Below are positions 8,082 to 51,739 of a stretch of 57,720 bases of DNA, one piece after another. The notes beneath the pieces were generated by a model. It saw nothing but the letters and a program-made list of their open reading frames with translations, was not told where the DNA came from and did no database searches. The position numbers were made by a program, and so were the translations under genes. The stretch comes from a virus. Numbering within the stretch: position 1 is the first letter of the stretch; the number at the start of each line of letters is the position of its first letter. The stretch is taken from IMG/VR virus record IMGVR_UViG_3300009181_000083, positions 1 through 57,720 of that record, one strand, 5' to 3'.

Positions 8082-8675
8082 ATGATTCAATTTTACAAAG
8101 CAAATCCGAAAGTTACAGGTTCCGCATGTTCCTTTAAGCTCTCTCTAAAGGACGATTGTATTTATCTCAACTTTATTAAGCAAGCGACTTGGAACGACGA
8201 GAAGAAGACGGGAACCTTTTCTTCTCAATCGACAAATCCAAAAGCCGTTTGCTCAATGAAGATTAACGCGACTGAAGTTGGAGATCTGATTTCTGCAATG
8301 CGTCGCGACAGTGAACTGAACTGCTTTCATGAATCTCAAAAACAGATTACAAAGATGAAGTTCTCTCCTTACCTAAGGCCAAGTAAGGACGATCCAAATT
8401 CAAGAAGTCAAGTTGGATACTCCCTAGCTGTCAATAAGGAAAGCAAAGAAGACTCTCAAGATAAAGCTTCTTTTATCATGGGTTTCACTTTTGGCGAGGC
8501 TGTAAAGTTAGAATTTTTTCTCAAACTTTCTCTCACTAAAATTTTTGAAAAATCTATTCAAGATCAAGATAATAAGAGCGCTCAGGGATATTCCCAGCCT
8601 AATCAGAAGGTTACTCCTAAAAAGGAAACTCCTAAAGAGGCTGCTACTAGTCCTGACGACTCTGATCTATGGTAA
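8082..8675 (+). CDS. Probable single-stranded DNA-binding protein
   Basis: This 197-residue protein has a beta-rich N-terminal domain (FYKANPKVTGSACSFKLSL, then IYLNFIKQATWND) and strands leading to HESQKQITKMKFSPY and an amphipathic C-terminal helix (FGEAVKLEFFLKLSLTKIF, about 145-165). A polar linker follows, ending in the acidic tail SPDDSDLW. A flexible tail with acidic residues and a terminal aromatic is the hallmark of phage and bacterial SSBs, which use it to recruit partners. The fold looks closer to PC4/Whirly-type binders than to OB-fold SSB, but this is judgement from pattern. Its place after the polymerase fits. The stop region overlaps the next start (ATGGTAA). Confidence 0.55.
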   Translation: MIQFYKANPKVTGSACSFKLSLKDDCIYLNFIKQATWNDEKKTGTFSSQSTNPKAVCSMKINATEVGDLISAMRRDSELNCFHESQKQITKMKFSPYLRPSKDDPNSRSQVGYSLAVNKESKEDSQDKASFIMGFTFGEAVKLEFFLKLSLTKIFEKSIQDQDNKSAQGYSQPNQKVTPKKETPKEAATSPDDSDLW

Positions 8676-18776: not shown

Positions 18777-21700
18777 CTTCTGCCTCCACTATTGCATCTT
18801 CCTCCACTATCGGATCTTCCTCCACAATCTCTTTTCCGTTTAACAGTTTAATGATTTCAGACTCGGAGAAATCTTCAAATTCGACGGTTGGCATAGGTTT
18901 TAGTTTTTCTATAGTAATAAAAATATCCAAATAATTAACACTAGGTGCTTGTTGCGCAAGCCTCGCTTCAGGAATTGGTTCTAGTAAAGTCTCAACATTA
19001 TTATAGTCCTCTACGGTTTGGTTGATGAGTCCTTGTCGATGTTCGGGCTTCCAATCATTCCCTATTCCAATTACTAAAGATCCTGGGTTTAAGACTGGAT
19101 ATTTAAATTGTAGCGCCGAATTGTGAGTTATGGACCATTGACTTATAACCTCCCTGAGATTAGTCTTTTTCATCGAGCACTCTACGAAAGATACATACTG
19201 TCCGTCTTTAGTGGTTATAGACTTACTCTTTAATGGGAAAACTTCTGTGATCGTAAAAATGTCTTTTTCGAAATCCGAATCTTGCCAAAAAGCGGAGGTG
19301 TTTGTCGGTAGCCAATATTCTACGCCACCTAACTCCGCCCTAAGCCCAAATTTACGATCAAATATAGCTTCCTTAAGAGCTAATCCCTCTTTAGGCTTAT
19401 CTACCACTTCTTTTGTTATTTCGGGGTCTATTGTCTCATCTGGTTGTCCTTCAAATTTATCGAATGTTTTTTCTAATTTTTGTATTATTTTGGCTACTTT
19501 TACATAATTTGGATATTTTATTTCGTAATTACTTACAGATACACCAATAAAAGTTTCACCATCTCTATATTCTTTGCCGTTATATTTAACATATGGATCT
19601 TCTGTTACCTTCGTGAAAAGATTTCCATTGATATTTGTTAAATTGTAAAATAAATTTGTGTCCGCTTCGACTATGTAGGTTGAACCGTTCTCAATTCCGG
19701 GTAATGTGTAAATTAATTCTGAAGGATCGAAAAATAAAAATTTATAAATAACTTCATGACCTATGCCAACCTCGTAAGCTAATATATTTTCTGGAGAGTC
19801 TGTGGGGATATCTATTCCATTGTAGTAATCCCTTATCGATAAACGCACGAAGCGACTCTGGCCAGTTTTATCTAAAAGCTTAACGTAAGAAGACTGCGGA
19901 GACTCACTAGAGAAGCTGTAGAAAATTGGTAAAATATCTTTAGTTCTATTTATTATTTTGTTCTTAGATACGCTGTCGGTTATGGAAATCATTGTTTTTG
20001 GATTGAAAACGCAATAGAATTCGTCTCTTCTTTTCGCTTTCTTCAAATATCTAATTCCACCAGAAGAATTTATAACTAAAACTGTATTTCTAAATAATGT
20101 TGGCGGCAGACTTTGCCCAGAGCTTAACTTTACAGAGACATCTTTCGCCGAATTATTAACTAAAAATATCTCAGAACCGACATTGACAGAAATATCATTA
20201 ATATTATCATTTACAATATAATGACCAGCATTTGAGACGCTTATCAAAGGTTTTCGGATATTAAGAATGCCAATTTTTTGATTTATTAACTGCTCGTTAT
20301 TGGATATTAAATAAGTAATTTTTTTATTGTCACCGTCATTATAGAGAGCATTATATCCAAAAAAATTCGCATAAATATCAGGAGGTCCGCCACTATCTTG
20401 GAGCAGGGAAATTGCAACGTTAACTAATGTATTAGATTGAGAGCTGATTCTATCGACATACTTTCCTTTATCAAAGTCGTGATCGAACAGAGCGTCGGCG
20501 AAAATATTTATTTTTGATTTTGATAGATAATTTTTATTTGTGACTTTAGTGCTTATATAAAACGTTCCTTTGGAATGGCTTTCCATGTAAGAAATGCCAT
20601 CTTTAGAAATTTCTAAAGTTCTTCCAACGGCGAGTGTGAAGGTTAGCCCGTTGATAAATATTGTTAAAAAAGAGCTGTAGGCGTTATGAATGTAAAATTT
20701 TTGATCAGGTAGTTCGTCTACCTTCAACAACGTTAGATCGTAAGGGACAAAAGATAATCCAGCCTCGTTGACTCTAGAAGATCCGTAAATAAACAATTTA
20801 TCATTAGGAGCGTATTCTTTTAAGTCGAATAAGTCTAATGTGCATATGTTTTTGATGTCGATTTTTACGGGTGTTCCGACTTGATTGTATTTGTATACTA
20901 TTGTTTCTGCTGTTATAAGTTTTACGATTGTTCCGCTTTTTAATTTCTTTTTTATTTCTTCGCCATCTGTCGTCGCGATGAGCGATGGTAATCCACCAAT
21001 TGCGATATTTGTTTTTTTAAAAGTTCCATTTTGATCTATCGATATTTTTGAGAACTTGGCTAAATCATGGAAAATTAAATCTTTTTTGCCACTTTCTTTT
21101 ATACGAATTGAGTAACCACAAGAATTGTAAAGATAAAAATTTTCATACGTATTACTCTTGAAGCTATTTTTGCTAATGTAAAATTGATCAAAATTAGAAA
21201 GATAAACAATTTCATTTCCATTAGTGTATATTGAATCAGACGTGTCACTCACTCCCTCGACACCTTTCAAAGTCGGATAAACTGTTTTGACGACGGGCTT
21301 GTCCTCGGTCAGCTCCGTCCAAAAATAAGTTATCGGCTCATTATTGCTTTTTGACGCTTGATAAACAAGTAATGAATCAATATTTAAAAGATTTTCCGTC
21401 GATGCGTCTGAATAATTTACCACCTGATTCGGCGTCGAGGAGTTGGCTCTAACCAAATTAACAAAAATAATTTTTTTGTTATGAATGGTTTCGCCAAGAA
21501 TTTCCCCGCCCTCAACTAAAGGCTGAGACAGATTAGGTAAATAATAAGTCATCAATTGAGAAGTTATAGGAATAAAAATCACGTCTGGAATACTAATGTA
21601 AGTCTGATTCCAGGAATATTTTAAGAGATCCTCATGCTGTCTCTCGATCACTGTTAGTGGCTTGACTGATCCTTGGAAATAAAATTCGTTTCTTTTTACT

Positions 21701-24700
21701 ATTTCACCTTCGAAATCTGCATATAAATAAAAAGCATTAACAAAATAAGGCCGCCCTGCTAAAGCTACTTGAGTTTTGGCTTTTCTTCCGTAGCAATATA
21801 TTCTTAATGCTACGCTTGGGGTTATGGTAGATGCTGAATCCACATCAATGATTTGGTATGTGTTAAGCCCAGCTATCAAAGAATTACCAATGAATTTGTC
21901 TAAAAATTCATCAGTATCAATTTCATTATTTTTATCAGGGTAAATAAGTTTCAGCGGATGATCAGAATCAATTTCCAAGTCTTGATTAGAAAATCTAATA
22001 ACCCTCCAGTCGGAAGAATTATCAGCATTGTCAGTATTGCTAGCAAAAGCCCAAGAGCTGGTATACGATAATTGAATTTGCTGGTTGGGCAATATCATCG
22101 TAATTGCAGAGTCGCTCAGAGTCTTTATAGGATAAGATCTAGAAGAGCTATTCTTAATAACTATATCAGTTTCTCCGAAAGCGTCTGGAATGATAATAGC
22201 ATCTACATCAGTTTCGGATCCCAAAATTATATAATAAATATTTTTAACATCAGTCCTAGTGTCGTCAGCTATTGTCTTTGCTATGAAAAATTCATCTTTG
22301 TTATAAATTGGAAAAATAGCAGTGGAGGAGCTGCCATTTCTCACTAGCCTGTTTTTTGCCAGAGTTTTATTTGTAGTGTCTTCGAAAACGGAGTCGTAAG
22401 CGAAATTCGCACAGATCTGCTCCATTTCTAAAACCGTGCTGAAAGTAATAGCTGTAGACCCCTTTTCACTTTCGTAACTCAGGACGCTTTCGTCTGACGT
22501 TTTCAAAACCTCTAATCTACCGTTTATATCTCCATCAGGATCGTAATCAAAAGACAGAGATCTAGATTCTAAATTTACAATGGAATTTTTTTCATCAAAA
22601 GATTGAATGTCTATCTTTTGCATTTTTGGAAAAAATATTTTACCATCATAGCTTGATTTTCTATTGTAAAAATCTCGTAAAGTAAAGTTGGATAATCCTG
22701 TCTCGTTTACGTAAAAATAATTAGCCGTTTTAGCCGTGTGTGAATCTGGAGTCGTTTCTTGAGGGACGCTATTCAAATTCTGCTTGCCATAATTTCCAAT
22801 GCGGTTTGTAAGCCATACTCTGTCAAGGGTGGGCCTGGTGTCGTTCTGAGATTGTTTGCGGACATTCAAGAACATAGAATTCAAACCTAAATTTTTGAAT
22901 TCATTTGACTCGTCAGTGCTGGAATTGTCTAATAAATCAGGTGGACATATTAAGCTTGAAGTATCAATCTTATTGGGAAAGAGTCTATTTTTGCAAATAA
23001 GAAAAGTCTCCTGCCCGGTAAAGTTGACCACATCTGGAAAATTAATTTCAGCATCGCAAAAATCTAAATTTAAAATATTAATTGTTGAATTTAAGTGGGT
23101 TACTGGGTCTATTGTAAATTCGAAATGGCTTCGAGCCTGCGTTAAAATTTCAACTGTAGCCTCAGAGTCCTTTAAGAAAATTCTTGCAATTTGGTTTTGA
23201 GAAAGAGCGGTTTTTTCTATTCCGTATGTGAATATTGCGTCTTTAGAGCTCTTATTCACGAAGTAAACAAAAGAATTTTGATATAGCAAATCTCCTGCGT
23301 CTTTCAAATTTATTTCTTGAGCAGAGTCTCCCTTAAGTATAATAAGTTGCTCTCGATCATCATTCAGAGCAACGCTTGCGTTTTTAGACGCGTAAATTAT
23401 TTTAAAATTGATTCCATTAGCATCTCTAGTTACTATTAATTTAAAATCTTGTTTTTGACTTGGGATGAAAGTTGTAGACGAGCTGTTTATTATTTTTATA
23501 TTTAAATCCCTATTCACCGCTTCGTCTTTTAGGAAGTAGTAAGCGTTAGAAGTATCTTTAAGGAACTTCGTGATTATGATTTCTGTATCGTCTTTTAGTA
23601 AGGTTATAAGATTATTATCTTCGCTTCCCTTAAGGTATATTCTTATGCTATCGAAATAATTTTTTAAGGCACCGCTCGGCGTATTAGCGCCACTCCACGT
23701 TACAAAATTAAAAGAGTCGGGAGCTAATACTGTAACGTTGTTTATTTTTAAAGAGTTTCTAGACGCATTATACACCGGAAGATCTGTGACGGCAGAGCTT
23801 AAAGTTAAGTTTAAATGATCGAAATTTGTTAATCCAGCATTAGAGTAAATATAATCGTCTTGAATGTTTACATTAGAAAAAGTTAGACCCGTAGTTAAGG
23901 CTGAAGCGGCGCTGGTCATGCGGAAAGTTTTTCCCCCCGTGAAAGAGTAATTAATGGAGTTGTAAAGTCCCGTTATGCTAGAAGCAGAATCATTAATTAA
24001 ATAAAACGTTTTTCCATCAATAGGATCTAGAAAAGTAAAGTTATTTTTTAAATAAATTACATCATTATTAATTATATTATTTAGACTTAAAGATCCAGAA
24101 CCTAAAACTTGCAGCCCTGACGTTGCTATAGGAAGTGTTCCGCTAATAGCAGCCACATAGCCACTAATTAAGCTTGTCCCGCCCACGCTACAGCTCAAAG
24201 ACCCAGTGTTTGCTACGTAAGCTTCGAAAGCTTGCCCAGTTATTCCCTTTAACGTGCTCGTCGCAGAGTCCGTCACAAAATAATAACCGCTATGATTTTG
24301 ATCGATTTCAAAAGTTGAGTTCTTTGATTCTGGATTGTTAAAATTCAACATCGGCGAATACGTTACGCCACTAACGAGCACGGCTGTGGTAACAGTATTT
24401 AGATTAATAATCTTATTAACTTTTAAATCGGAAGATGTATCTCCTACTTCAAATCCATATTCGCCCGAAAGAGAACTTGAAACCTTGGCGGTTGAAGGCA
24501 TGATTCCGGAAACGACAATGTCGTAATATCCAGAATAATTAAGGGATCCAAAATTAGCCAACCCCATATCAATATAACTCTGCTTAACATCGGGGACAGC
24601 ATAAGAAGACGTCTTCAAAACGAGTTCTGACCTTAGCAGCGTTAAGTTATTTCCAGTATCTTTTTGATAAATGTCAAAGCGAGGACATGCAGCGTTGCCA

Positions 24701-27700
24701 GACCACGAAGCCTGAATGGGAATAAAATTTGTTTTTTTGATAACCTCCACCGACGAGGTCGAGATTCCAAGTCTTTTATATTTTACTATCTTAAATTCGT
24801 AATCGTTGTCATCTAAGAATAGTGGTAGATTAACCTCAAAAGCTACCATTGATAGAAAATGGACTCCTTGGTTAAAGTCGAGGTATTCGGAGGGTATCAC
24901 ACCGAAGTTGCAAGAAATTTCATCTATTAAAAATTCCCTGCTTTCAGTCACCTTTTTCCAAACTAAATCGGTAGGATCTTTTTTCTTATATTGCAACTCG
25001 TATTTCCATCCGCCGTTGTTATATATCGAATTACGAGAACCGGCGTCGCCAATGATTACGAGGTTCTTCGTGTAAAAATTGTATTTAATTTTTGTGACTT
25101 TTAATCTTCTTGTTTTTGAAAGAGTGATCGACTCGGGATTGGTCGGAGCTAGCTGCTTGACAAGCCTGTTGTTGTGAGCAAAATCTAAAACACAATTAGA
25201 TTCATAAGAAAGAACATTTTTAGACTCTTCGGTAACAATTATGTTGTTCTCGAAAAGTCCCTCCTCTAAGCTAGTTATATGCGCAGTCGTAACTGGAGAG
25301 CCTTCGTGATTTTTTGAAGTAAATGGGCCATTCGGAAAGCTGAAAAGAACCGCGCTTGAATTTCTAGTTTCTAGAGGGGTTTCCTCAAAAAAGCGAGGCG
25401 TAATGAGTCCCGCTGATTCTTTACTGCCATAATTATTGTCATTAATTGGATTTTTATTAAAAATAGACCATTGATGAGTCGTGTTTTTAGGTTTTAATTC
25501 GTATTTATAAATTTGAATATTAAATCTAATTAGAGCGGGGTCTACCAGCGCAAGACCAGTGTCTGCTATGGAAGGATATGTCGCTTGGAATAAAGTATTG
25601 TCTACGAACTCCGTAGATAATGCATTTTCAAAATTCTTTTTTGAGAATTTTAATACAGCCGCTTTTCCTGAAATTACAGAAGCTGGGTCGTTGTTTTTTA
25701 TGTTCGACTTGTTGAAAGTTAAAGGGTCTGAAGTTCCCGTGTGTGAATATAAATGATATGCGTAATTTTTTATATCTTGATTAGCTATTGAGATAGCGGC
25801 TCCATTAAGCCCCGTCCAAGCCACAGCTCCAGAGTAACTATTGTAACTAAACGTGCTATTCAATCCGGTGGCGTATTCTACTCTAAGGCATTTTTTATCA
25901 TTAATCGGGTTAAAAAGCAATTTACCGATTGAATCGCCAGTAGAGTATGATAAGCCGCTGTGCTCAAGAAATTTCTCGAATGTTAAATTCTCGTTGTAAT
26001 TTTGGGCTGGAAAGAAGCTTTTCGGATCATTGGGGACATCTCCGTAGGATTGGACACAATACAGTCTGTCGTTTTGTGTGGTCGTTAATTTTGAGCCAAT
26101 AGCGATCTTAGATCCAGAAGTGAATGATCTGTTAAATTCTGAAATTTGACTTTCATTATAAGGTTCTGTATAGATTTCCCTTTCGACAAATATTCTCGGC
26201 ACTTTCCCACCATTAGTTAAGAAAGAATTTTCACTTGAATTTTGTTTGGGTCCACCTATGTCCTGGTTAATTTTAGATAAGGCTCCAGCAAAAAAACCAG
26301 AATAACTACTCTCTGCTAAAGTTGGATATACAGTAAAAGAATTGACGTAGTTTTTAGTATAAAAATAATTTATAGCATTCAACCAAGCTTCTTTATCTAT
26401 ATAATTTGTTTTTTTTATGATACCGTCACTTGGGATTCGTGTCACGGTGCCGTTTTCAGTATAAACATCCTCACCCGCTTCTCGATAGTCATCTAAAGCA
26501 GAATCTCCTTTGCAAAAACTCACTTCATCTATTCGCAAACCAAGAGCTGTTGGATTTATAAGCTTCACCTCTTGAGTTCCGAATGCCCTACCTAAAGCTA
26601 AAGATTCATTGCCGCAATAAACAAATATAGGAATAGAATAAGCCGATATGGGAGTGATGATGTAAGTTTCTCCAGAATTTAAATAATTTGTATAATAATC
26701 TTTTGAAATTATTTTTTTAGGCAATGGGAAATTTGATAAAAATGATTTTATTGGTGGAGATTCTTGATTACTATTTAATGCAGCGAAATCTTCGTTTATC
26801 ATCAAATCGTTTTTGAATTTCTGATCTTCATCTATATTTTCGGTTGTATCTTCCAAGTAAGATGCGTATTTTATTTCTTCCTGCTCTTTTAATTGATTCA
26901 ACGCTTCAGCTTCAGTCATGAAATCTGTATAATTATAAGATTGCCCATCTTGAATTGTTCTTGGGTAAACTCCAGAACCAAATGCAAGATTTATTATTCC
27001 ACTGCCGATACCGGACGCGTTATATCCAGACATTACGTAGCCTATTTTAGTTATACCAACATTACCACTTGATTCTTGAATTACTACATTTACTCTATAA
27101 ATTCCACTATAGCTACCAGTAGCAAGTAAATCAATTTGTAAATTTGAACCCGCCTTTGATACCTTAACGCCAGTTACGGATTCATCCAAACCACTTTTTA
27201 TGCAAGGATCGGATTGATCAAGGACCGTCTTCACCTCGTCAGATGAAAAAGATATAACTTTAGGAGTCGAAAAATTATAATTAACTGAGCTTGTTATTTG
27301 TTCAGATACTTCATCATTTGGTAAATTTATTAATAATTGCCCGTTTGCGTTAGTTTCTGCGGGGAAAAAAGATCCGAAAGGATCGCTCTTTCTAGATACC
27401 CGATATTTAAAACTAGAACCTTCTTCCACTTGAGATGGAGGGTCGAATGAAAAAGAATTTTTGACCGGAGAGTTTTTGCTGTCATCATATAAGAATTTAT
27501 ATCTTGTAGAGACCTCGTTAGAATAACCACTATATCCCGTATCTTGATATCCATAAATAAAATCAAGATTATTTCCAGAAATTAATAATTTAGTGTCTTG
27601 CCAATCTTCGCCAGATATGACTAGCAGCTCTTTATTCGAGAACTGAGAGATATTAATTCCAGTGATTTCACACCTTCTATATATTTTACCAGAAAAACTT

Positions 27701-28053
27701 ATCCCAGGTATAAAAATATATGGAGACAAACCGGAAATGTAAGAATCTGTTATGTCTGCAATGATCTGTATCGTCTCTTCGTAACTTTCCCCCTTTACTC
27801 CCGACGATATAAAAAACCTTGATTTAGTGAGGTTGCCTTCATTATCTGGCAACGTCCAAACTGTTCCAGTAAGGGCAAATGGATAAGTAATTATATCTTC
27901 CACTAGAAATTCTGGAAAGGCGTATCCATCTTCATTAACATTTAAATTTTCAAAAGTAGACACCCATAGACCGTAAGTGTTTTGTGTAACATTTAAATTT
28001 GGATCAGATAAAACTCCAGTTAAAAAATTTATATTATCGGTAACGGCACTCAT
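18769..28053 (-). CDS. Giant tail structural protein, 3094 aa
   Basis: This is the second largest gene in the window. The N-terminus (about 1-300) is beta-rich with repeated SGY turns. From about 1250 to 2810 there are at least nine divergent copies of a short beta-module built on [FY]-[YF]-[LIV]-x-N-x-[SA]-S, for example FYLINDSASS (~1347), FVYFVNKSSK (~1593), KFYIHNAYSS (~2449) and IFLVNNSAKD (~2628). The C-terminus is a very acidic tail containing an EEDxIV repeat. Length and composition suggest a long tail-tip or side-fibre component that makes multiple host contacts. No enzyme motif was seen. The stop is TAG at 18769-18771. Confidence 0.6.
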   Translation of the reverse strand: MSAVTDNINFLTGVLSDPNLNVTQNTYGLWVSTFENLNVNEDGYAFPEFLVEDIITYPFALTGTVWTLPDNEGNLTKSRFFISSGVKGESYEETIQIIADITDSYISGLSPYIFIPGISFSGKIYRRCEITGINISQFSNKELLVISGEDWQDTKLLISGNNLDFIYGYQDTGYSGYSNEVSTRYKFLYDDSKNSPVKNSFSFDPPSQVEEGSSFKYRVSRKSDPFGSFFPAETNANGQLLINLPNDEVSEQITSSVNYNFSTPKVISFSSDEVKTVLDQSDPCIKSGLDESVTGVKVSKAGSNLQIDLLATGSYSGIYRVNVVIQESSGNVGITKIGYVMSGYNASGIGSGIINLAFGSGVYPRTIQDGQSYNYTDFMTEAEALNQLKEQEEIKYASYLEDTTENIDEDQKFKNDLMINEDFAALNSNQESPPIKSFLSNFPLPKKIISKDYYTNYLNSGETYIITPISAYSIPIFVYCGNESLALGRAFGTQEVKLINPTALGLRIDEVSFCKGDSALDDYREAGEDVYTENGTVTRIPSDGIIKKTNYIDKEAWLNAINYFYTKNYVNSFTVYPTLAESSYSGFFAGALSKINQDIGGPKQNSSENSFLTNGGKVPRIFVEREIYTEPYNESQISEFNRSFTSGSKIAIGSKLTTTQNDRLYCVQSYGDVPNDPKSFFPAQNYNENLTFEKFLEHSGLSYSTGDSIGKLLFNPINDKKCLRVEYATGLNSTFSYNSYSGAVAWTGLNGAAISIANQDIKNYAYHLYSHTGTSDPLTFNKSNIKNNDPASVISGKAAVLKFSKKNFENALSTEFVDNTLFQATYPSIADTGLALVDPALIRFNIQIYKYELKPKNTTHQWSIFNKNPINDNNYGSKESAGLITPRFFEETPLETRNSSAVLFSFPNGPFTSKNHEGSPVTTAHITSLEEGLFENNIIVTEESKNVLSYESNCVLDFAHNNRLVKQLAPTNPESITLSKTRRLKVTKIKYNFYTKNLVIIGDAGSRNSIYNNGGWKYELQYKKKDPTDLVWKKVTESREFLIDEISCNFGVIPSEYLDFNQGVHFLSMVAFEVNLPLFLDDNDYEFKIVKYKRLGISTSSVEVIKKTNFIPIQASWSGNAACPRFDIYQKDTGNNLTLLRSELVLKTSSYAVPDVKQSYIDMGLANFGSLNYSGYYDIVVSGIMPSTAKVSSSLSGEYGFEVGDTSSDLKVNKIINLNTVTTAVLVSGVTYSPMLNFNNPESKNSTFEIDQNHSGYYFVTDSATSTLKGITGQAFEAYVANTGSLSCSVGGTSLISGYVAAISGTLPIATSGLQVLGSGSLSLNNIINNDVIYLKNNFTFLDPIDGKTFYLINDSASSITGLYNSINYSFTGGKTFRMTSAASALTTGLTFSNVNIQDDYIYSNAGLTNFDHLNLTLSSAVTDLPVYNASRNSLKINNVTVLAPDSFNFVTWSGANTPSGALKNYFDSIRIYLKGSEDNNLITLLKDDTEIIITKFLKDTSNAYYFLKDEAVNRDLNIKIINSSSTTFIPSQKQDFKLIVTRDANGINFKIIYASKNASVALNDDREQLIILKGDSAQEINLKDAGDLLYQNSFVYFVNKSSKDAIFTYGIEKTALSQNQIARIFLKDSEATVEILTQARSHFEFTIDPVTHLNSTINILNLDFCDAEINFPDVVNFTGQETFLICKNRLFPNKIDTSSLICPPDLLDNSSTDESNEFKNLGLNSMFLNVRKQSQNDTRPTLDRVWLTNRIGNYGKQNLNSVPQETTPDSHTAKTANYFYVNETGLSNFTLRDFYNRKSSYDGKIFFPKMQKIDIQSFDEKNSIVNLESRSLSFDYDPDGDINGRLEVLKTSDESVLSYESEKGSTAITFSTVLEMEQICANFAYDSVFEDTTNKTLAKNRLVRNGSSSTAIFPIYNKDEFFIAKTIADDTRTDVKNIYYIILGSETDVDAIIIPDAFGETDIVIKNSSSRSYPIKTLSDSAITMILPNQQIQLSYTSSWAFASNTDNADNSSDWRVIRFSNQDLEIDSDHPLKLIYPDKNNEIDTDEFLDKFIGNSLIAGLNTYQIIDVDSASTITPSVALRIYCYGRKAKTQVALAGRPYFVNAFYLYADFEGEIVKRNEFYFQGSVKPLTVIERQHEDLLKYSWNQTYISIPDVIFIPITSQLMTYYLPNLSQPLVEGGEILGETIHNKKIIFVNLVRANSSTPNQVVNYSDASTENLLNIDSLLVYQASKSNNEPITYFWTELTEDKPVVKTVYPTLKGVEGVSDTSDSIYTNGNEIVYLSNFDQFYISKNSFKSNTYENFYLYNSCGYSIRIKESGKKDLIFHDLAKFSKISIDQNGTFKKTNIAIGGLPSLIATTDGEEIKKKLKSGTIVKLITAETIVYKYNQVGTPVKIDIKNICTLDLFDLKEYAPNDKLFIYGSSRVNEAGLSFVPYDLTLLKVDELPDQKFYIHNAYSSFLTIFINGLTFTLAVGRTLEISKDGISYMESHSKGTFYISTKVTNKNYLSKSKINIFADALFDHDFDKGKYVDRISSQSNTLVNVAISLLQDSGGPPDIYANFFGYNALYNDGDNKKITYLISNNEQLINQKIGILNIRKPLISVSNAGHYIVNDNINDISVNVGSEIFLVNNSAKDVSVKLSSGQSLPPTLFRNTVLVINSSGGIRYLKKAKRRDEFYCVFNPKTMISITDSVSKNKIINRTKDILPIFYSFSSESPQSSYVKLLDKTGQSRFVRLSIRDYYNGIDIPTDSPENILAYEVGIGHEVIYKFLFFDPSELIYTLPGIENGSTYIVEADTNLFYNLTNINGNLFTKVTEDPYVKYNGKEYRDGETFIGVSVSNYEIKYPNYVKVAKIIQKLEKTFDKFEGQPDETIDPEITKEVVDKPKEGLALKEAIFDRKFGLRAELGGVEYWLPTNTSAFWQDSDFEKDIFTITEVFPLKSKSITTKDGQYVSFVECSMKKTNLREVISQWSITHNSALQFKYPVLNPGSLVIGIGNDWKPEHRQGLINQTVEDYNNVETLLEPIPEARLAQQAPSVNYLDIFITIEKLKPMPTVEFEDFSESEIIKLLNGKEIVEEDPIVEEDAIVEAEGE
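18785..18820 (-). repeat. 18-bp tandem repeat encoding EEDxIV
   Basis: Two units of 18 bases (18785-18802 and 18803-18820) differ at two positions, and a third partial copy follows. They encode consecutive EEDAIV / EEDPIV hexapeptides in the acidic tail of the 3094-residue protein. Probably slippage-generated. Confidence 0.8.
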
Positions 28054-42142: not shown

Positions 42143-45100
42143 TTATCTTTTTGCAATTCTTGGACCCATTTTACCCATTTCTTTCGGGAATTTAGATTGT
42201 AATATATCTAAAACACCATCCATCATTGAGTCTGAATTTCCTTGATATGATCTTTCGTCATTTATATTAACTATGTTTGAATTAGAAACATTTGGAACCA
42301 TTCCTCCTGCAAATGATGCTATTCCATTTTTCATAGCTTCTGTGATTGCAGCTGTAAATTGTTCTGTTGAGAAATTAGGAATAAATCCTGCACTAAATCC
42401 TAAAGATTGTTGTTGAGCTGGGTTTAATATAGCGTGAGTCTCTGATGGGTTTTTAGGTTTCATATTTGCACCGGCTGGACCGAACATTCTACTATATACT
42501 TCACTGGCCGGAACTTCTATTTCAGCGCTGTTGATTACGGCATTTTTATACACGCTAGAACGCATCGGAACGGCGTCTCTATGTCCAGCGTAACTTGGGC
42601 TAGATAAAACCGCACGTTTTTCTTGCATGAACATGGGAGCGAAGCCTCTCGCGTAATTATTGATCTTCCCACTCCTAGCTGGTATAAACCCATTGGAATA
42701 ACCATTTAAAAGTTTTTCAAGCTCCGTCATGCTCTCTATCTGATTTTTATTTATTGATTCTTGTTCTTTGTTTAGCATTCCCGCAGCTTCAACCCCTTCG
42801 CTTGTCAGCCCGAGCCCTTGCGGAGTCATCGCACTTAAAGGATTTCCTGCCACGCTCCTTAGCGTAACTTGATTAGACTCTCCCAGAGCTGCAAAAGTGC
42901 GGGTAAGTGCAGGATTTTCTGGCGTCGTGGCGTTTAACAGGGCTCCGCCCGCAGCTTCCTTATCTAACCTTGCCAAGGATTCTTGTTTTATTAGAAGAGC
43001 GTCAGCCTTTTCTCTTTGCGAATCTGACATGTCAAGGTAATTCAGCATAATTTGCGAATCCGACTTTCCCGGGAACGTTGCCCTAGTTAAGCTGCCGTCT
43101 TTCTCTAGGAACGCCGTCATCCTTTGCTGCCTATCATTTAGGACTTTAGATTGCTGTTCTCTAATAGCGGGCATTAGAGTAGGATCTACTGATGCAAGGC
43201 TGGGATCTCGCATGTATTCTCGCAACATGAGGTCTTTCTTGTCTTTGATTTCCAACGCGCTTTGTTCAGCATTTGGACGTTGATATTCGTCAAGAGGGGC
43301 AGCGAATCCCGTTCGCGCTTTCACGGCGTCAGCCATTAACCCAAACGCTTTCTCTCTCTGCTCGCTTGATAAGAGAGCAAGTTCGCTGTCGCCAGACGGT
43401 CTAAGTGACTGCTCCTGCCGATCATATATGACGGGTTGGTCCCATAACCCACGTTTTTTTACGTGATTTATAATCTCGTCAGATGTTGAGGTAATTAGGT
43501 CTGGATCGTTTGGACTAGGGTTATTGCGCAAGCGTTCCATTGCGTAACTTAATTGGGCCGTTTTCTTGGCTTGTTCTTTTGCTTCTTTTTCTTCCTTTGG
43601 GTGGGGGGTGAGTCTGTCGATCTGAGCGCCAAATGCCCCCATTCCAAGAGCCGAGAAGGTGTTTTCGTTTGCGTGTTTCTCCATCTCTTGGGTTTTTGCG
43701 CGATTCAACCTTTCGGAAAAGGTCTCGCCGAGGCTGGGCCTGTCTCCATGGAAGTCCGTTATCCTCGCCAAAAGTGCTTCGTCGTTATTGTCCATAGGGG
43801 ATATGCCTTGTCTCACGGAGATGTCCATACTCTTCTTTTTTAGGACGGTATCTTCAACAGGTAGCTGTCGATACATGCTAAGAATCGCAGCTTCTTTATC
43901 CGACAGGTTGAGATTTTCTCGGTTTTTGACAGCCTTAGCCGTTCGAAAAGCTACTACGTTGGCTTCTATTCGATTATACTCGGTCTTATATCTTTCAAGA
44001 CTAGCGATTTTGGCGTCGAAATAAGCTGCGTCGCTCTTCGACATTGATAAATATTGATTTAAACGTTCGTTGTCCGACTGGGGCGACGATTGAGGAGTAT
44101 ACATAGCTGCTAATCGTGGATCGTGTCTCAATTTATTAGCAGCCACTCTGTAGCTATCATGCGGTGCTCTCGTTTCCGTTATGCGAGGTATGTCCACAGG
44201 GCTATCCAATACATCTCGTTTCACGCTTAGAAAGCGTTGCTTGCGCTCGTCAAGTAGTGCCTTCTCCTCTTCATAAACAGAATTTTTACGATTCGGAATA
44301 AACTTTACTTCACCACCATTTTCCCAATCTGTCACCTTTTCGAAAGCGTTAGGCGCCAGCCCCCTCAAGATTTCATTTTCTTTTGCCGCCACTTCTATTC
44401 CAGTTAGCTGATCCGCACGTTCAGCTCGCAATGCCGCAGCGCTCTGCTTGTTCGCAGACAGTCTTTCAGATCTTCCCTCTTCATAATTGGGTCGACTTCT
44501 AGCCCATTCGGTTTCAAACTCGATATCATCTTTTGTACGAATCTGACCTCCAGGAAAACGTTTGGAAATCTTACGAGACTCAGGGTTTCTTGCTTCTGCC
44601 AGCAACCGCTCATTGAGACGTGTTTTCCAGTTTGCATTCTCGTCTTCTCCTTGCATGGACATCGTCATTGCCCCAAGTTTATCACCTAAGCCAATTCCCT
44701 CTTCAATCATCCCCCCCACCGCATAACCCGTGTCCCAAACGCCCTTTGCCAATAGAATTCCGCCGATGATCGGACCAACTACCGGAATGAAAGGCAAAGC
44801 CGTATAAAGAGCTCCCCAGGCGGCAGCTTTCAAAGCCTCAGACTGGGCATCTTCTTTGCTAATAAGTCCTTTGTTATAATCTTTATTTATATCGTATAGA
44901 GAGGAGAGGGTGTGAAGTGCGCCCGCAGCTATGCCGATCTTAGCCATGGGGCCCATACCTCCAGCACCACCTCTAGGGCCACCTTTAGGCGTCTGACCTC
45001 CAGGCGCTTTAGTAAAGCGACCCCGAGCGTCCCTCAACGGCCCTTTGCCTCCAGATCCCTTACTCCCAGGAGTCTTAGCTCCAGAAGTCTTACCTCCAGG

Positions 45101-48100
45101 AGCCCCAGCATTTGCAGGACCACCCGCTCTATTCTGAAATCTATATTGACCGTAAGAAACTGCAAAATTGATCGCCTCATTACGCACCAATTTTATTAAT
45201 TCTTCAGTTACCTTTTCGCCCTTCTCAGCCTCTGTTAGCTTATTGTCGTTATAAATGTCATAGATGTTCTTACCCCCAAGAGCTATGTCACCGCCCATGA
45301 ACAATTTAGAATAACCGCCCATCTTATAACCCGGCCTGCTTCCCGCCTGACCAGCTTTATTCTGAGACTCTACTGAGGAAGTCTTATTTCCAGGTTTCTT
45401 AGCTCCAAAGTAGTCGTATCTTCCCGTCTTTGGATTAAAAATGTCCTGACCTCCGGGTTTGACAACTTTACTTTGTTTTGAACCAGCCTTCGAAGGCTTT
45501 TTAGCCGGTGAACTAAGAGGAGCTGCGGGCGGAGTAGTTGTTGATGGTGAACTAAGAGGAGCTGTAGGCGGAGTAGCTCCGGATGGTGAAGGAGTCCTTG
45601 ATGCAGCGGATAGTGATGAAGTAGGACTTTGTCCAAAGACATTTTTAACTAATGTTTGCGACAGATTTCCGCCCATGTATCCTGAAGACCCTCTCAAATC
45701 ACTTGGATTGACTTCGAAAACAATAGTGCCAACTTTGCCTCTTCCGCCAGAGTAAAATTCCCTCGACTTAACGCCAGCATTTTTTGCCGCTTCTAAAGTA
45801 GTTCCACCAACATCAACTCCGAAGAAGGCATTTTTTATCCCTTTCTGTTTCACTGAGGCTCTTATAGCGTGAACAGCGGAACTTTCCGCTGCTTTTTTAA
45901 AAGATTGAGTCATTTTAATAGCTTCATCTTTGGCAAGCCCAGCCTTCATATAGGATTGAATCGACGCCTCAGCGGTAGGATCGGCTTTAGTGGCTTTTAA
46001 AATTGTTCCACCTTTTATTATTTTTACATTTCCTTTATCATCTACCGCGACATGAACTCTTAACTCGTTGTAATAAGTGGGAACTTTTGCTTGAGTAAAA
46101 AATCCACTTCCAGTGCCTTTGCTATATTGATTTATGATAGAGGCGGTGTCGGAAGTTGTTAATTTACCTCCCCTTCCAAATACTCCTCTACTTTGAATAT
46201 TTGACTCTCCAAATGCTGTTTTAACAACTATATCTTCTCCTCCTGTTTTTTTATGAATTTGGGTCAATAAATTTTCTGGAGTAAGTTTTCCTTGCCTGTT
46301 TAGTCTAGATAGAATTCCATCTATTGGTTGAGATCTAGCTACCCCCGGAAGCTTTAATTCATCAAGTTTCGTTACTTTAGGATCGTTTAGTCCAAGAATA
46401 GATTTTCCTTTACCGCCGGTTTGCCCGAGTTCTGTAGATATTGTTCTTGATCCTTTCGGTAAATCGTTAGAGTTTATTAAAGCAGTTTCTACTGAGCTAT
46501 CCGGATTGACTTTTCTAAAACCGTCACCGATGTGATCCCAAACATACAATTTTCCAAGCGATGCTTGTTTCCTAGCTAAATTTGCTTTCTTTTGACCAAA
46601 AGCTGCAAAATTTGGAATATAACCATCAGCCAATCCAATACTAGCCAAACCTCTCGGTTCATCAATTGTGTTTGTTACTGCTAATCCAAAAGGATTACTT
46701 GATTGTTTTAATTTGTTGCTTTGATCTACTCTAATTGAATTAAATGGTACAAATTCAGACTCTCTGCGAATTGCGTCTCTTAAAGGGCTTTTAAAATTTG
46801 GAATGAACCCACCAGCCTTGCCCATGTCCGCCGCCGCTGCTTGATCTGCGCTAGACGCCTCAGGACCTCCGGTAAAATAATCTGAAACATCACTGGCCAT
46901 ATTGCTAAAATACGACATGACACCATCCATAAAACTGCCGTCCTTTTTCTTTTCCGAGTCTGGGTCTAGTCCTTCGACTATAATCTTCGCTTTCGTTATA
47001 GTTAGCCCTCTCTCGAATGACTTTCCTAAAGAAGTTTCAAATTCGTCCATTTTGGTTTTCGTGTCCTTGCTTGACTCATTTATTAAAGCGTCAGCCTGCG
47101 GTTGCATAGCTTTTTCAGATGCTCTAAGTCGCTGATCATCAGATCTTTTTTCCATGTCATCTTGCGTATTGCTCTGTGAATAATCAGCTATTGCCTGCTT
47201 TACTTCATCGGGCATTTTACTCAACCCAAGGTGAGCCTGCGTCTGTATTTTACCTATCGCATATAGATCTTGCGAATCATTAGCTTTCGCTCGCATAGCT
47301 CCGCCCAGCTGATAGTCACCCATTCGATCAGCCCGCCTAGCGTCTCTAAGTAAAGACTTCCTCAAGTCTCTCGCTCTTAAATTTGCACCGACTTCCGTTG
47401 CTCTGTCAAACGCTCCTTCACCGAAATTCAATCCTGCATATTTTTCTTTAACCCCTTTCGCGAAATTAACATATCCAGCATCAGCTGTATTTTGAGATCC
47501 AAATCGGTTTCCCAATGCATACTGCATGGACGCTCTCGCAGTCGGTTCGTCAGACGCCCTTTTGCCTTCGTAACTTAAAGATGCCGCCATTCCTCCTCCA
47601 AAAACCAACCTTCGTTTTAAAGCTAAAAGTGCAAGATCTTTCTTTTTTTTCTCATCTGCTTTTGATTCGATTACTTGCATTGCGTTTTGCGACTGTTTAG
47701 TTTCAGAAAGAAGTGCCTCTAGCTCGTTTTTTTGTTTAGGATCTTTAGTTTGTTTTATACTATTTTTCAGTGACGATTCCAGCTCTTGACTCGGACCTTG
47801 ACCAATAAAACGACTAAGCCCTGGCATTTTTTCAGCTTTAGAAGAAAGCATTGCACCAAATCTTGCTCTTTCCTGCCCTGATTCCATTGCCACGTCCACG
47901 TTTCTCCTCGCGTCTATTTCGGACTCTGGTCCGAAATTAGATGCGTAATCAACCAAATCATTAAGATAATCACCTCTAGACGATTTTTTTATGGCTCTTA
48001 ATTTTTTATTTTGTTCATTCTGCATTCGAATATCTGAGGATGGTCGCCTGAGATTCGTTAATTGATTTTTTGTTAGCTCTTCTTTCTCGCTTATCTTTTC

Positions 48101-51100
48101 ATTCGTCTGTAAAAAATTAATAAATGGCGTTATGAGTCTCCCTTTAGTCCCGGCGAGAACTTTGTTAGCGTCTCCTATGCCAGCTTTCTTCAGGGCCTCT
48201 CCAAGATTTTCAGGCGTTAAATTTTTAACGTCCAACTTGCTCATGTCAGCTTGACTAGACCAATCTGAGAATAAAGACTTTATCGCCTTTGGTTTTCTTT
48301 TTTTGTCATCTAATTCTAAAAACTTAATAGAAGCATCATTAACAACTTTATCTTTAGTCGCTGACTCTACCGCATCTGCTAAAATTGTTTGTTTTTCCGC
48401 TGATGTCCGTGCCGTCGCCAACTTCATTGCCGCTTGTGGATTACTTTTATCCATGCTTCTCATTAGCTCTGCTTGTTTTTTACCTAATTTAATAAGGACT
48501 TCTGGACTAACGCTCGGGTCTAAATAAGCATTGTTTAAGTCTTCAATGGATTGAGCTAATTGTCCTGCATTTTGAGTAAGTTTATTGAATTTATCAGCAG
48601 TGTTATCTTTTACTTTTTGAAATTGATCTGATCTTACGTCAGCTTCTGTTTGACTAGCTCCTGAAAAACCAGATATTATAGCTGGTGCGTTTTGCGCGAT
48701 AGCCATACCCACATTTGCAGCTTTTCCCCATCCAGTTCTACCACGAGCAAATCCTGAGACGATATCCATCCCAGCCATACCTAAGGGAAGCCCTCGTTGC
48801 ACGGCAGCAATCGTACCTACGTTATTTTGATTCGCTACCCCGCTCAACATCATTGACGCGCCTCCAATTAAACTTGATCTCATCATCCCACCCATCATGC
48901 TCGGACCTTCTTGAGGTTGGTAGTTACTCATACTTCCGTGCTTCACTCTGAACGCTGCCATATCAGCCAGTCGTTCATCTTTCCTTTTCTGCTCCCACCA
49001 ATCTGATATCTTATTGAAATTAGGAATGAAACCTTTAGACTTAATCAACCCAGCGCCTTTTTGCATCGAAGCTGAATCTGACAAAGCATTTTGAAGTCCT
49101 CCATGATCATTTATAGCTGATTCGAAAGTCGGCTGACTGGAATTACGAACATGAGGAAACGGTTCGGTATCGAATATTGCTGTGCCATTTCCAGCTTCTG
49201 ACTCTAGTTGTTTTACTTCATCTAAATAAGCAAAATTGGGGATAAATCCTGCATACTTGTTCCGAGATCTCAGTACTCTTCGAGCTTTTTGCTTTAGCGA
49301 CTTGGCGGATGTGGACTTTGCATATTGTTGTCGAGATCTTTGAGTAGGCGTGGCTTGTTGATTTGTAGAAATAACCTCTATTATATTTCTACTATCTATA
49401 TCTCTACCATTTGAATCTATGGTTAAGTCTTTGCGTTTTTGGACAACTTTCTTTAGTCCACTAAGCATATCTGTTTTTATTTGTCCGATGTTGACAGACC
49501 CGCCTTGTAATTTTACTTGTCCTAAAAATAATTCATTTTCTTTTTCATTTTTTTTATTTTCATGTACCGTTTTGATAAAGTAATCATAGCCGTTAAAATT
49601 TGCTTTAAATAGACCGCTGTCGATTATTGAGTCGCCTCCACCTATCAACGTTGTTTTAAAACTGTCGAGAGCTTTACTCTCTTGAGAAAGCCTTTCCTTA
49701 AGGATATCTTTATGGTTTTGGGTTTTTTGGGTTTCTGAAACGCCTTCCTTTTTCGTCTCAGTCATTAACTTTTCGATGTTGCGTAGCGACACGTCTGCTT
49801 GCTCGTTGTCCGCATACGTATTGTATAGCATCTTCGCCCCGTGATTCATTAGGAAATTAGGAATAAAACCTCTACTAGAATAAGGATTAACTCCTGTTTG
49901 TTTAATTGCATTTTCTCGATGCATTTGCCCAGCTTTTGAACTTTCAGGCGGATTAATAAACGGTTGAGAAAACCCAGGAACGTATTTGACCTTCTCTGAG
50001 GTGTTCATTATTCCACCGATAGATGATGGAGTTTCCACCACCGCTCCCGGAGAGTATCCTCCACTTAGAGCTCCTGCTCTTTCTGCGTCTTGATCTGCTT
50101 TGGGAATGTAGCCCATTGCTCTTCTTTTTTTAAGTCCAGTTGTCGGACTTACTGTAAAACCACCTTGAGCTAATGTGTTTGCTAATGCAGAACTTAAAGT
50201 GGCATTTGTTTGCAGTTGAGCGGCTTGTTGCTGCATTATAGTTAGCAATGCTTGAGCAGCAGTTGTTTGACTTATTTGCCCACTGACTATTTGTTGTATG
50301 ATTTGCGGTTGATTATTAAGTGTAGAGGTGATTAAACTTTGTAAATTAAGAATATTCTGAGAAGCGCTAGTTACTCCCAAAAGGCTTCTTACAGCCTCTG
50401 TTCCAAATGTAAGTAATTTTTTACCAATAGCGAAAGCTAAAGCTCCGACGATAACGATTCCGGGCCCTGCTATCGCAGCTCCGAGTCCCTTAAGCAGTGA
50501 TTCGCCAAATGACCGACCACTTTTCGCTCCTTCTTCATCGCCTTCTTTTTTATCAAATACATTTAAAGTTTTATTTATTATTGCTGTTCCGGTCTTAACT
50601 AGCGGAGTCAACAGCGGGGTGGCAATTGCCGCTCCTTTTTGTTGTAGATTAGCTTTAGTTATTTCTATTGTAGCGGTGAGACTTTGATTTAAAGCTTCGT
50701 TTTTATCAAAAGCTTGATCTGTCGCAGAGTTCGACGCTTGTAAAGCTCTAGCATAAACACCATTAGATCTGGAAAGGTCATTAATTAAAGAATTTAATAT
50801 GTTGATTTGGAATATGCCGCCAAGTAATTCTGCTGTTTTTGCTTTTTCTGTTTGACTTAAGTTTTTTGTGGCGTCGGTGTAGTTTTTTAATATACTTATA
50901 CCATCTAAGAAATATCCATTTTGATCTTTTACCGCAACTCCGATTTCTCGTAATTGGTCTATAACTTCCGGCCTCTTCATTCTAGTGAAGATTGTTTTTA
51001 ATGCGTTTCCGATAACCGCACCGCCACGACCTGTCGTTTGTTGAGCGGCGGTGATGGATGCGACTAATTGATCAATTGAGACTCCAGAATCTTGAGCGGA

Positions 51101-51739
51101 ACTACCGACTCGGCTCAGTGCTTGAGCTAAATCACTCGAACTAACCGCAAATTGAGAATCAACTTGAACTAATTTATTTACGATTTCTGAAGAAGTTAAT
51201 CCAGATTTATTAAAACTGTTTATTGCGGTTGTTAAAGCTGTAACCGACTCAGCTGCTCCGAGACCCGATATCCTACTTAGAATTAGAGCGTCATTGGTTC
51301 TCTTCAAGGTGTCTTCCATCGACAAACCTTGCCTAGCGAATTCTTTCGCAGCTTCAGCAACTGCACTAAAAGAAGTTGCAGTATTTTTAGCTATTGAAAA
51401 TAGAGAATCTCCAAACGCTTTCAGCTGCCCTTGAGATTGACCTAAAAAAGTATTTAATTCCGTCAATTCTTTATCAACTAACATCATGGATTTAGCTGCT
51501 TCAGACATAGCCTTAGAAACTAAATAAATAGCCCCAGACGTTACTCCGAAAGCTGCGACGCGGGCTGAAGCCGCTGCCATAGACTTGTCAAACATTGCTA
51601 GATCGCCAGTTATACGACCCAATGGCTGAGAAAAATTTACTTTGGCCGTTATCGGCTTGCCTGCGGCGGTTTGAAGAGCGCTTAATTGAGCTTGAGCCGC
51701 TGCCGTCGAAAGATTTAAATTAATATTATAAGTTGCCAT
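42143..51739 (-). CDS. Tail tape measure protein, 3198 aa, with embedded ATP-grasp-like domain
   Basis: Residues 1-400 are a TP901-type tape measure core (FDKSMAAASARVAAFG, KELTELNTFLGQSQ, TGRGGAVIGNALKTIFTRM). Hydrophobic stretches lie at about 413-440 and 2303-2336 (ALPFIPVVGPIIGG), as expected for a protein that is ejected and may insert in membrane. Ten GFIPNF-type motifs are scattered through it. Residues about 1715-2040 resemble an ATP-grasp enzyme (K1840, E1892-L-R-V-H, D1976, E2009-x-N2011). Proline- and glycine-rich linkers follow (about 2050-2085 and 2210-2270). About 2350-3000 is charged and helical. At about 0.15 nm per residue the tail would be near 480 nm. The ATG has GTAGGATT directly before it. 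Confidence 0.92.
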   Translation of the reverse strand: MATYNINLNLSTAAAQAQLSALQTAAGKPITAKVNFSQPLGRITGDLAMFDKSMAAASARVAAFGVTSGAIYLVSKAMSEAAKSMMLVDKELTELNTFLGQSQGQLKAFGDSLFSIAKNTATSFSAVAEAAKEFARQGLSMEDTLKRTNDALILSRISGLGAAESVTALTTAINSFNKSGLTSSEIVNKLVQVDSQFAVSSSDLAQALSRVGSSAQDSGVSIDQLVASITAAQQTTGRGGAVIGNALKTIFTRMKRPEVIDQLREIGVAVKDQNGYFLDGISILKNYTDATKNLSQTEKAKTAELLGGIFQINILNSLINDLSRSNGVYARALQASNSATDQAFDKNEALNQSLTATIEITKANLQQKGAAIATPLLTPLVKTGTAIINKTLNVFDKKEGDEEGAKSGRSFGESLLKGLGAAIAGPGIVIVGALAFAIGKKLLTFGTEAVRSLLGVTSASQNILNLQSLITSTLNNQPQIIQQIVSGQISQTTAAQALLTIMQQQAAQLQTNATLSSALANTLAQGGFTVSPTTGLKKRRAMGYIPKADQDAERAGALSGGYSPGAVVETPSSIGGIMNTSEKVKYVPGFSQPFINPPESSKAGQMHRENAIKQTGVNPYSSRGFIPNFLMNHGAKMLYNTYADNEQADVSLRNIEKLMTETKKEGVSETQKTQNHKDILKERLSQESKALDSFKTTLIGGGDSIIDSGLFKANFNGYDYFIKTVHENKKNEKENELFLGQVKLQGGSVNIGQIKTDMLSGLKKVVQKRKDLTIDSNGRDIDSRNIIEVISTNQQATPTQRSRQQYAKSTSAKSLKQKARRVLRSRNKYAGFIPNFAYLDEVKQLESEAGNGTAIFDTEPFPHVRNSSQPTFESAINDHGGLQNALSDSASMQKGAGLIKSKGFIPNFNKISDWWEQKRKDERLADMAAFRVKHGSMSNYQPQEGPSMMGGMMRSSLIGGASMMLSGVANQNNVGTIAAVQRGLPLGMAGMDIVSGFARGRTGWGKAANVGMAIAQNAPAIISGFSGASQTEADVRSDQFQKVKDNTADKFNKLTQNAGQLAQSIEDLNNAYLDPSVSPEVLIKLGKKQAELMRSMDKSNPQAAMKLATARTSAEKQTILADAVESATKDKVVNDASIKFLELDDKKRKPKAIKSLFSDWSSQADMSKLDVKNLTPENLGEALKKAGIGDANKVLAGTKGRLITPFINFLQTNEKISEKEELTKNQLTNLRRPSSDIRMQNEQNKKLRAIKKSSRGDYLNDLVDYASNFGPESEIDARRNVDVAMESGQERARFGAMLSSKAEKMPGLSRFIGQGPSQELESSLKNSIKQTKDPKQKNELEALLSETKQSQNAMQVIESKADEKKKKDLALLALKRRLVFGGGMAASLSYEGKRASDEPTARASMQYALGNRFGSQNTADAGYVNFAKGVKEKYAGLNFGEGAFDRATEVGANLRARDLRKSLLRDARRADRMGDYQLGGAMRAKANDSQDLYAIGKIQTQAHLGLSKMPDEVKQAIADYSQSNTQDDMEKRSDDQRLRASEKAMQPQADALINESSKDTKTKMDEFETSLGKSFERGLTITKAKIIVEGLDPDSEKKKDGSFMDGVMSYFSNMASDVSDYFTGGPEASSADQAAAADMGKAGGFIPNFKSPLRDAIRRESEFVPFNSIRVDQSNKLKQSSNPFGLAVTNTIDEPRGLASIGLADGYIPNFAAFGQKKANLARKQASLGKLYVWDHIGDGFRKVNPDSSVETALINSNDLPKGSRTISTELGQTGGKGKSILGLNDPKVTKLDELKLPGVARSQPIDGILSRLNRQGKLTPENLLTQIHKKTGGEDIVVKTAFGESNIQSRGVFGRGGKLTTSDTASIINQYSKGTGSGFFTQAKVPTYYNELRVHVAVDDKGNVKIIKGGTILKATKADPTAEASIQSYMKAGLAKDEAIKMTQSFKKAAESSAVHAIRASVKQKGIKNAFFGVDVGGTTLEAAKNAGVKSREFYSGGRGKVGTIVFEVNPSDLRGSSGYMGGNLSQTLVKNVFGQSPTSSLSAASRTPSPSGATPPTAPLSSPSTTTPPAAPLSSPAKKPSKAGSKQSKVVKPGGQDIFNPKTGRYDYFGAKKPGNKTSSVESQNKAGQAGSRPGYKMGGYSKLFMGGDIALGGKNIYDIYNDNKLTEAEKGEKVTEELIKLVRNEAINFAVSYGQYRFQNRAGGPANAGAPGGKTSGAKTPGSKGSGGKGPLRDARGRFTKAPGGQTPKGGPRGGAGGMGPMAKIGIAAGALHTLSSLYDINKDYNKGLISKEDAQSEALKAAAWGALYTALPFIPVVGPIIGGILLAKGVWDTGYAVGGMIEEGIGLGDKLGAMTMSMQGEDENANWKTRLNERLLAEARNPESRKISKRFPGGQIRTKDDIEFETEWARSRPNYEEGRSERLSANKQSAAALRAERADQLTGIEVAAKENEILRGLAPNAFEKVTDWENGGEVKFIPNRKNSVYEEEKALLDERKQRFLSVKRDVLDSPVDIPRITETRAPHDSYRVAANKLRHDPRLAAMYTPQSSPQSDNERLNQYLSMSKSDAAYFDAKIASLERYKTEYNRIEANVVAFRTAKAVKNRENLNLSDKEAAILSMYRQLPVEDTVLKKKSMDISVRQGISPMDNNDEALLARITDFHGDRPSLGETFSERLNRAKTQEMEKHANENTFSALGMGAFGAQIDRLTPHPKEEKEAKEQAKKTAQLSYAMERLRNNPSPNDPDLITSTSDEIINHVKKRGLWDQPVIYDRQEQSLRPSGDSELALLSSEQREKAFGLMADAVKARTGFAAPLDEYQRPNAEQSALEIKDKKDLMLREYMRDPSLASVDPTLMPAIREQQSKVLNDRQQRMTAFLEKDGSLTRATFPGKSDSQIMLNYLDMSDSQREKADALLIKQESLARLDKEAAGGALLNATTPENPALTRTFAALGESNQVTLRSVAGNPLSAMTPQGLGLTSEGVEAAGMLNKEQESINKNQIESMTELEKLLNGYSNGFIPARSGKINNYARGFAPMFMQEKRAVLSSPSYAGHRDAVPMRSSVYKNAVINSAEIEVPASEVYSRMFGPAGANMKPKNPSETHAILNPAQQQSLGFSAGFIPNFSTEQFTAAITEAMKNGIASFAGGMVPNVSNSNIVNINDERSYQGNSDSMMDGVLDILQSKFPKEMGKMGPRIAKR
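45507..45584 (-). repeat. 39-bp tandem repeat, proline-rich linker
   Basis: Two 39-base units (45507-45545 and 45546-45584) encode the sequence TPPxAPLSSP twice, with differences mainly in two short stretches. They form part of a Pro/Ser/Thr linker directly after the ATP-grasp-like domain. Confidence 0.85.
45600..46600 (-). other. ATP-grasp-like domain inside the tape measure
   Basis: Residues about 1715-2040 of the tape measure. DIVVKTAFGES (K1840) with FGRGG after it resembles the phosphate-contacting lysine and glycine-rich loop. NELRVHVAVD (E1892, R1894, H1896) matches the 'E.RVHV' strand. FFGVDVGGT (D1976) and FEVNPSD (E2009, N2011) match the metal-binding 'D ... ExN' end. GFIPNF-type motifs occur just before it. 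ATP-grasp enzymes join carboxylates to amines or thiols using ATP. Assignment rests on motif order only. Confidence 0.5.

Follow-up and report, generated by a model that had tools for sequence, protein, structure and literature searches.

A conserved candidate ATP-grasp ligase domain within a phage tape measure protein

To our knowledge, tape measure proteins (TMPs) are mostly regarded as rulers and channel formers that carry lytic domains at most. TMPs leave the tail tube by ejection (PMC13277306; RcGTA, PMC7296036), and during injection that of phage lambda was labelled at the inner membrane (PMC13190303). The concepts nearest to the protein described here are the polyvalent proteins (PMC5512222) and the TMP-derived effectors (PMC13277306), the known kind being virion-delivered enzymatic cargo. 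ATP-grasp ligases of the R2K clade (CDC123/R2K.1-3) have been found in several caudate phages and were proposed to modify host proteins (PMC4431377, PMC7824862), and phages such as UFV-P2 have a protein annotated as an ATP-grasp enzyme (ORF28; PMC3890496). The template described for the superfamily comprises two lysines, one in a linker and one ending strand 2 of the RAGNYA lobe, an acidic residue in strand 4 of the kinase-like lobe and an ExN motif ending the last strand, with an ExR motif in the amide-forming assemblage (PMC4431377). Within the literature searched, whose coverage leaves out most subscription journals, we found no report of an ATP-grasp domain in a TMP.

The DNA analysed here, referred to as the window in the rest of the text, comprises the 57,720 bases of an IMG/VR virus record. 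An ORF of 3198 aa on its minus strand (42143 to 51739) codes for a TMP, as indicated by TMP profile matches and by its place in a tail module. Its conserved N-terminal core (aa 117 to 306; 50822 to 51391, minus strand), recognized by Pfam and by alignment, matches PhageMin_Tail (PF10145, E = 1.9e-28 in a Pfam profile search), and PHROG tape measure families match the ORF with E-values down to 2.7e-49. The tail genes are syntenic with those of the related contigs L002, L007 and L008; those downstream of the TMP gene follow the same order in L007 and L008, with 40-57% identity. The N-terminal ~530-630 aa are common to the TMPs of this family, which diverge into modules beyond that point. Elsewhere in the window, a 3094-aa protein without a Pfam match is encoded, like the tail genes, on the minus strand (18769 to 28053), DNA polymerase III alpha (4104 to 8063) is apparently split into a PHP domain (4104 to 4865), an exonuclease (4858 to 5496) and a polymerase (5493 to 8063), and a 628-aa glycosyltransferase-like protein (8669 to 10555) adjoins the replication genes.

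The first-pass annotation of this sequence had proposed that the TMP contains an ATP-grasp-like domain at positions 45600 to 46600, which correspond to aa 1714 to 2047. Relatives were collected from IMG/VR starting from the TMP N-terminus, and the same domain was found in two of them, L002 (a 174.6-kb contig, also present as the 88.7-kb contig L003) and L007 (an 80.8-kb contig). In the N-terminal core, the TMPs of the window and L002 are 49-73% identical; beyond it, identity is mostly 19-37% but rises to 64-73% over aa 1701 to 2000 before dropping again after aa ~2038, where a Pro/Ser/Thr-rich linker begins (aa 2038 to 2087; 45479 to 45628, minus strand). Based on conservation, the limits of the domain lie at about aa 1700 and 2038 (~45626 to 46642). 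Its core (aa 1728 to 2036; 45632 to 46558, minus strand), also backed by the pattern and block tests described below, is 71% identical to that of L002 and 73% identical to that of L007, and the difference at codon positions 1 and 2 is 0.17-0.18 compared to ~0.5 in the flanks, i.e. about a third. Such an island of strong conservation between flanks of mostly 19-37% identity indicates a discrete selected domain rather than chance motifs. Whatever its fold, the region of aa ~1700 to 2038 thus forms a domain of its own, held under strong purifying selection in a TMP that diverges fast. In a sensitive search of 26 related virus records the domain was confined to the three phages (window, L002 and L007), further scans using other peptide patterns revealed no extra carriers, and searches by sequence of Pfam, PHROGs, PDB, phages, plasmids and genome contigs returned no informative homologue. 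An assembly artefact was ruled out, as the domain occurs in three distinct phages, on separate contigs and in separate samples.

The candidate residues singled out in the first pass, K1840, E1892-L-R-V-H1896, D1976 and E2009-x-N2011, lie exactly at these positions of the TMP and are invariant in the window, L002 and L007 (all coordinates below refer to the minus strand). K1840 (46220 to 46222), the candidate ATP-binding lysine, lies in GGEDIVVKTAFGESNI at the end of the strand DIVVK and is followed by a glycine/serine loop, TAFGESNIQSRGVFGRGG (aa 1841 to 1858; 46166 to 46219), which weakly resembles the ssxGbGl loop of the published template (PMC4431377). E1892-L-R-V-H1896 (46052 to 46066), in the context YYNELRVHV, is the putative ExR strand of the kinase-like lobe and exhibits the E-x-R-V-H-V of stand-alone phage ATP-grasp proteins. 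D1976 (45812 to 45814), in FFGVDVGG, is a candidate Mg-binding acid, and E2009-V-N2011 (45707 to 45715), in TIVFEVNPSD, forms an ExN motif whose E and N are invariant in the three phages, with V or I between them. By comparison with the template (PMC4431377), K1791 (46367 to 46369), which is also invariant in the three-sequence alignment, may provide the positive charge in the linker preceding the RAGNYA lobe. The order K, ExR, D, ExN is that of the template: K1840 would take the place of the lysine with which RAGNYA strand 2 ends C-terminally and before the Gly loop, while E1892-L-R1894 takes that of the ExR, D1976 that of the strand-4 acid of the kinase-like lobe, and E2009-V-N2011 that of the ExN ending the final strand. 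If these correspondences hold, the ExR arginine points to the part of the superfamily that forms amide or peptide bonds.

Stand-alone phage ATP-grasp proteins with the motif EYRVHVF were found in 91 IMG/VR contigs, and 87 such proteins served for comparison. A composite ATP-grasp pattern matched none of 2000 shuffled TMPs, a rate that is a guide and not a p-value since the pattern was written after the target had been seen. Over 727,542 ORF residues, it matched only the TMP domain and the stand-alone EYRVHVF proteins (70 of the 87 were recovered), with 0 matches in reversed ORFs and 2 per 9.5 million residues in shuffled ORFs. A full-profile comparison with the EYRVHVF family was not counted because it was driven by the shared ELRVHV, which had also selected that family. 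We used instead a motif-free test, in which position-specific blocks were derived from the 87 proteins, collected by the EYRVHVF motif, with the motif itself excluded. When allowed to search freely downstream of E1892, the D-strand block (B3) and the ExN block (B4) settled exactly on FFGVDVG and GTIVFEVNPSDLR, respectively. For the window alone, their summed score was reached by 64 of 3000 flank shuffles and by 99 of 5000 natural positions; for the three sequences taken jointly, it was reached by 11 of 2000 column shuffles. The upstream block covering the lysine and the glycine-rich loop (B1) found no support, as 1201 of 3000 shuffles reached its score, and a block around the TQ preceding the ExR was not significant. 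Hence K1840 is present and invariant, yet its block fails to beat the controls, and the glycine-rich loop claimed in the first pass is indeed there but only loosely resembles the canonical loop and fares no better against them. The putative kinase-like lobe (ExR, D and ExN) is supported beyond chance, and the Lys/Gly-loop lobe is without independent support.

Profile and structure searches did not recover the fold. None of the Pfam ATP-grasp models matched any of the three carriers at E ≤ 10, the R2K_3 (PF14243) and RimK models had no match in the window, and PDB profile searches yielded no match to the domain. A profile of the EYRVHVF family did not list the TMP domain (hmmsearch, E ≤ 10), and hhalign of the domain against that family aligned ELRVHV only. 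RimK relatives from genomes were tried as a profile and dropped, being too alike to be useful. AlphaFold models of the domain had a pLDDT of 33 from one sequence and 37 from three, too low to read, and Foldseek matches obtained with the latter model were discarded as noise at such confidence. Curated profiles diagnose known families, and none for ATP-grasp matched; as the superfamily is defined by its fold, the lack of a Pfam match was not taken to decide membership. The failure of every profile and fold method to recover ATP-grasp, the missing signal of the N-terminal lobe and the restriction of homologues to no more than three phages would all suit a conserved domain of another fold, for instance a nucleotide-binding, nuclease or transferase module, with motifs that mimic the ATP-grasp order. 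We find this rather unlikely, given that three motif blocks are ordered and spaced as expected, two being significant without the selecting motif, and that the composite pattern is very rare by chance. Thus, although no such method confirms the domain proposed in the first pass, the order, spacing and invariance of its motifs and its domain-sized conservation island stand, and on these features its assignment as ATP-grasp is quite likely.

The setting of the domain within the TMP family bears on its possible role. A survey of loci L002-L044 revealed that the TMP modules are separated by a repeated linker with the consensus [AS]xG[FY][IV]PNF[AS]. ORFs flagged as TMPs contain 193 [IVM]PNF motifs in 100,341 residues compared to 16 in 195,093 residues of other ORFs, and 12 of these 16 fall in four TMP fragments missed by the flag. 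The TMP of the window contains copies at aa 624, 831, 903, 1644, 1706 and 3118 and degenerate ones at aa 543, 3017, 3032 and 3146; the linker could be a hinge, a docking site or a site of protease processing. Directly before the domain, an element delimited by blastp and by the linkers GFIPNF (aa 1644) and GYIPNF (aa 1706) (aa 1642 to 1712, NPFGLAVTN..DEP.GL; 46604 to 46816, minus strand) is common to most TMPs of the family (L013, L014, L016, L018, L024, L025, L029, L034, L035 and L042, by blastp). Most modules of the family have no database match. One of L005 (13424 to 13906) weakly matches three GNAT acetyltransferase families (0.0017 for PF14542 and 0.0047 for PF00583), the best match being below its curated cut-off. 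Another TMP module of L005 (11699 to 13456), for which Pfam and PHROGs returned nothing, displays by eye a protein-kinase-like glycine loop (GSGVQGVVYKYTLPSGKQKIVKIPR). We tentatively suggest that this lineage of large tailed phages might use the TMP as a modular delivery rack, in which variable enzymes separated by the repeated linker (an ATP-grasp ligase in the window, GNAT-like and perhaps kinase-like modules in relatives) would be threaded through the tail and released into the host at entry.

As an ATP-grasp enzyme requires ATP, its action is expected in the cytoplasm, be it that of the cell producing the phage or that of the cell just infected. A delivered effector is favoured by the variable modules of the relatives, and we lean towards aa ~1700 to 2038 being a catalytic ATP-grasp-type ligase domain that is carried in the virion as cargo, ejected and predicted to act in the host. 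By analogy with other ejected TMPs, the domain would be an injected effector that travels in the virion and enters the host. As is the case for other long-tailed phages, the TMP would leave the tail ahead of or together with the DNA, and the domain would refold in the cytoplasm, where ATP is available. There, it might link an amino acid, a peptide or the like to a protein or metabolite of host (or early phage) origin via an acyl-phosphate intermediate, thereby helping infection to start. A genuine ATP-grasp enzyme could also work in the producing cell, for example by modifying the TMP itself or virion proteins while tails are being assembled, and merely be packaged: ATP is available in that cell as well, the gene lies within a conserved tail module, and action after ejection is deduced from TMP biology. 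However, the variable, linker-separated modules of the relatives fit delivered effectors better than a family-wide assembly step, making this explanation unlikely. That the domain is a degenerate derivative of ATP-grasp that serves in binding or structure (as a plug, spacer or interaction module) without catalysis, as the departure of the Gly loop from the canonical motif might indicate, is improbable given that all candidate catalytic residues are invariant across the three phages and the domain is strongly constrained.

Should the TMP carry an ATP-dependent ligase that acts in the newly infected host, a protein- or metabolite-modifying enzyme would be delivered before any gene expression. 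The repeated linker provides a simple handle on further cargo modules in other TMPs and renders the question of TMP-borne effectors directly testable.

Compared with the stand-alone EYRVHVF proteins, the TMP domain has the same E-x-R-V-H-V, GVD/AVD strand and hhExN strand in the same order, as well as, by eye, an (F/Y)TQ before the ExR strand. In contrast to these proteins, which are separate and mostly 220-310 aa long, the domain is part of the TMP, contains inserted sequence on either side of the D strand, towards ExR as well as towards ExN, and is unmatched by their profile. Like the R2K ligases, it fits the ExR, D and ExN template, and it has a suggestive K/R at position 1851, within the loop that follows the strand lysine. 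Since it lacks a match to the PF14243 profile and differs from them in spacing and loop, it was not filed as R2K. Separately, a 203-kb contig of L005 (L057), a phage with a related TMP, contains a distinct R2K_3-type ATP-grasp gene (1201 to 2019; 1e-10, above the Pfam cut-off). Other domains, C-terminal or lytic, are found in the tape-measure-related contractile-injection-system effectors Sle1 and Tme (PMC13277306) and in TMPs known to have lytic activity domains (PMC10194240), and an ATP-dependent ligase was not reported in the literature found; as is predicted for the window, a TMP carries in these systems a functional domain that is ejected from the tube. The text on polyvalent proteins (PMC5512222) makes no mention of tape measures and includes ATP-grasp only as RNA ligases, whereas here the carrier is the TMP itself. 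The two are alike in being very large, multidomain proteins that bear swappable enzymatic modules and accompany the DNA, as is predicted for the TMP.
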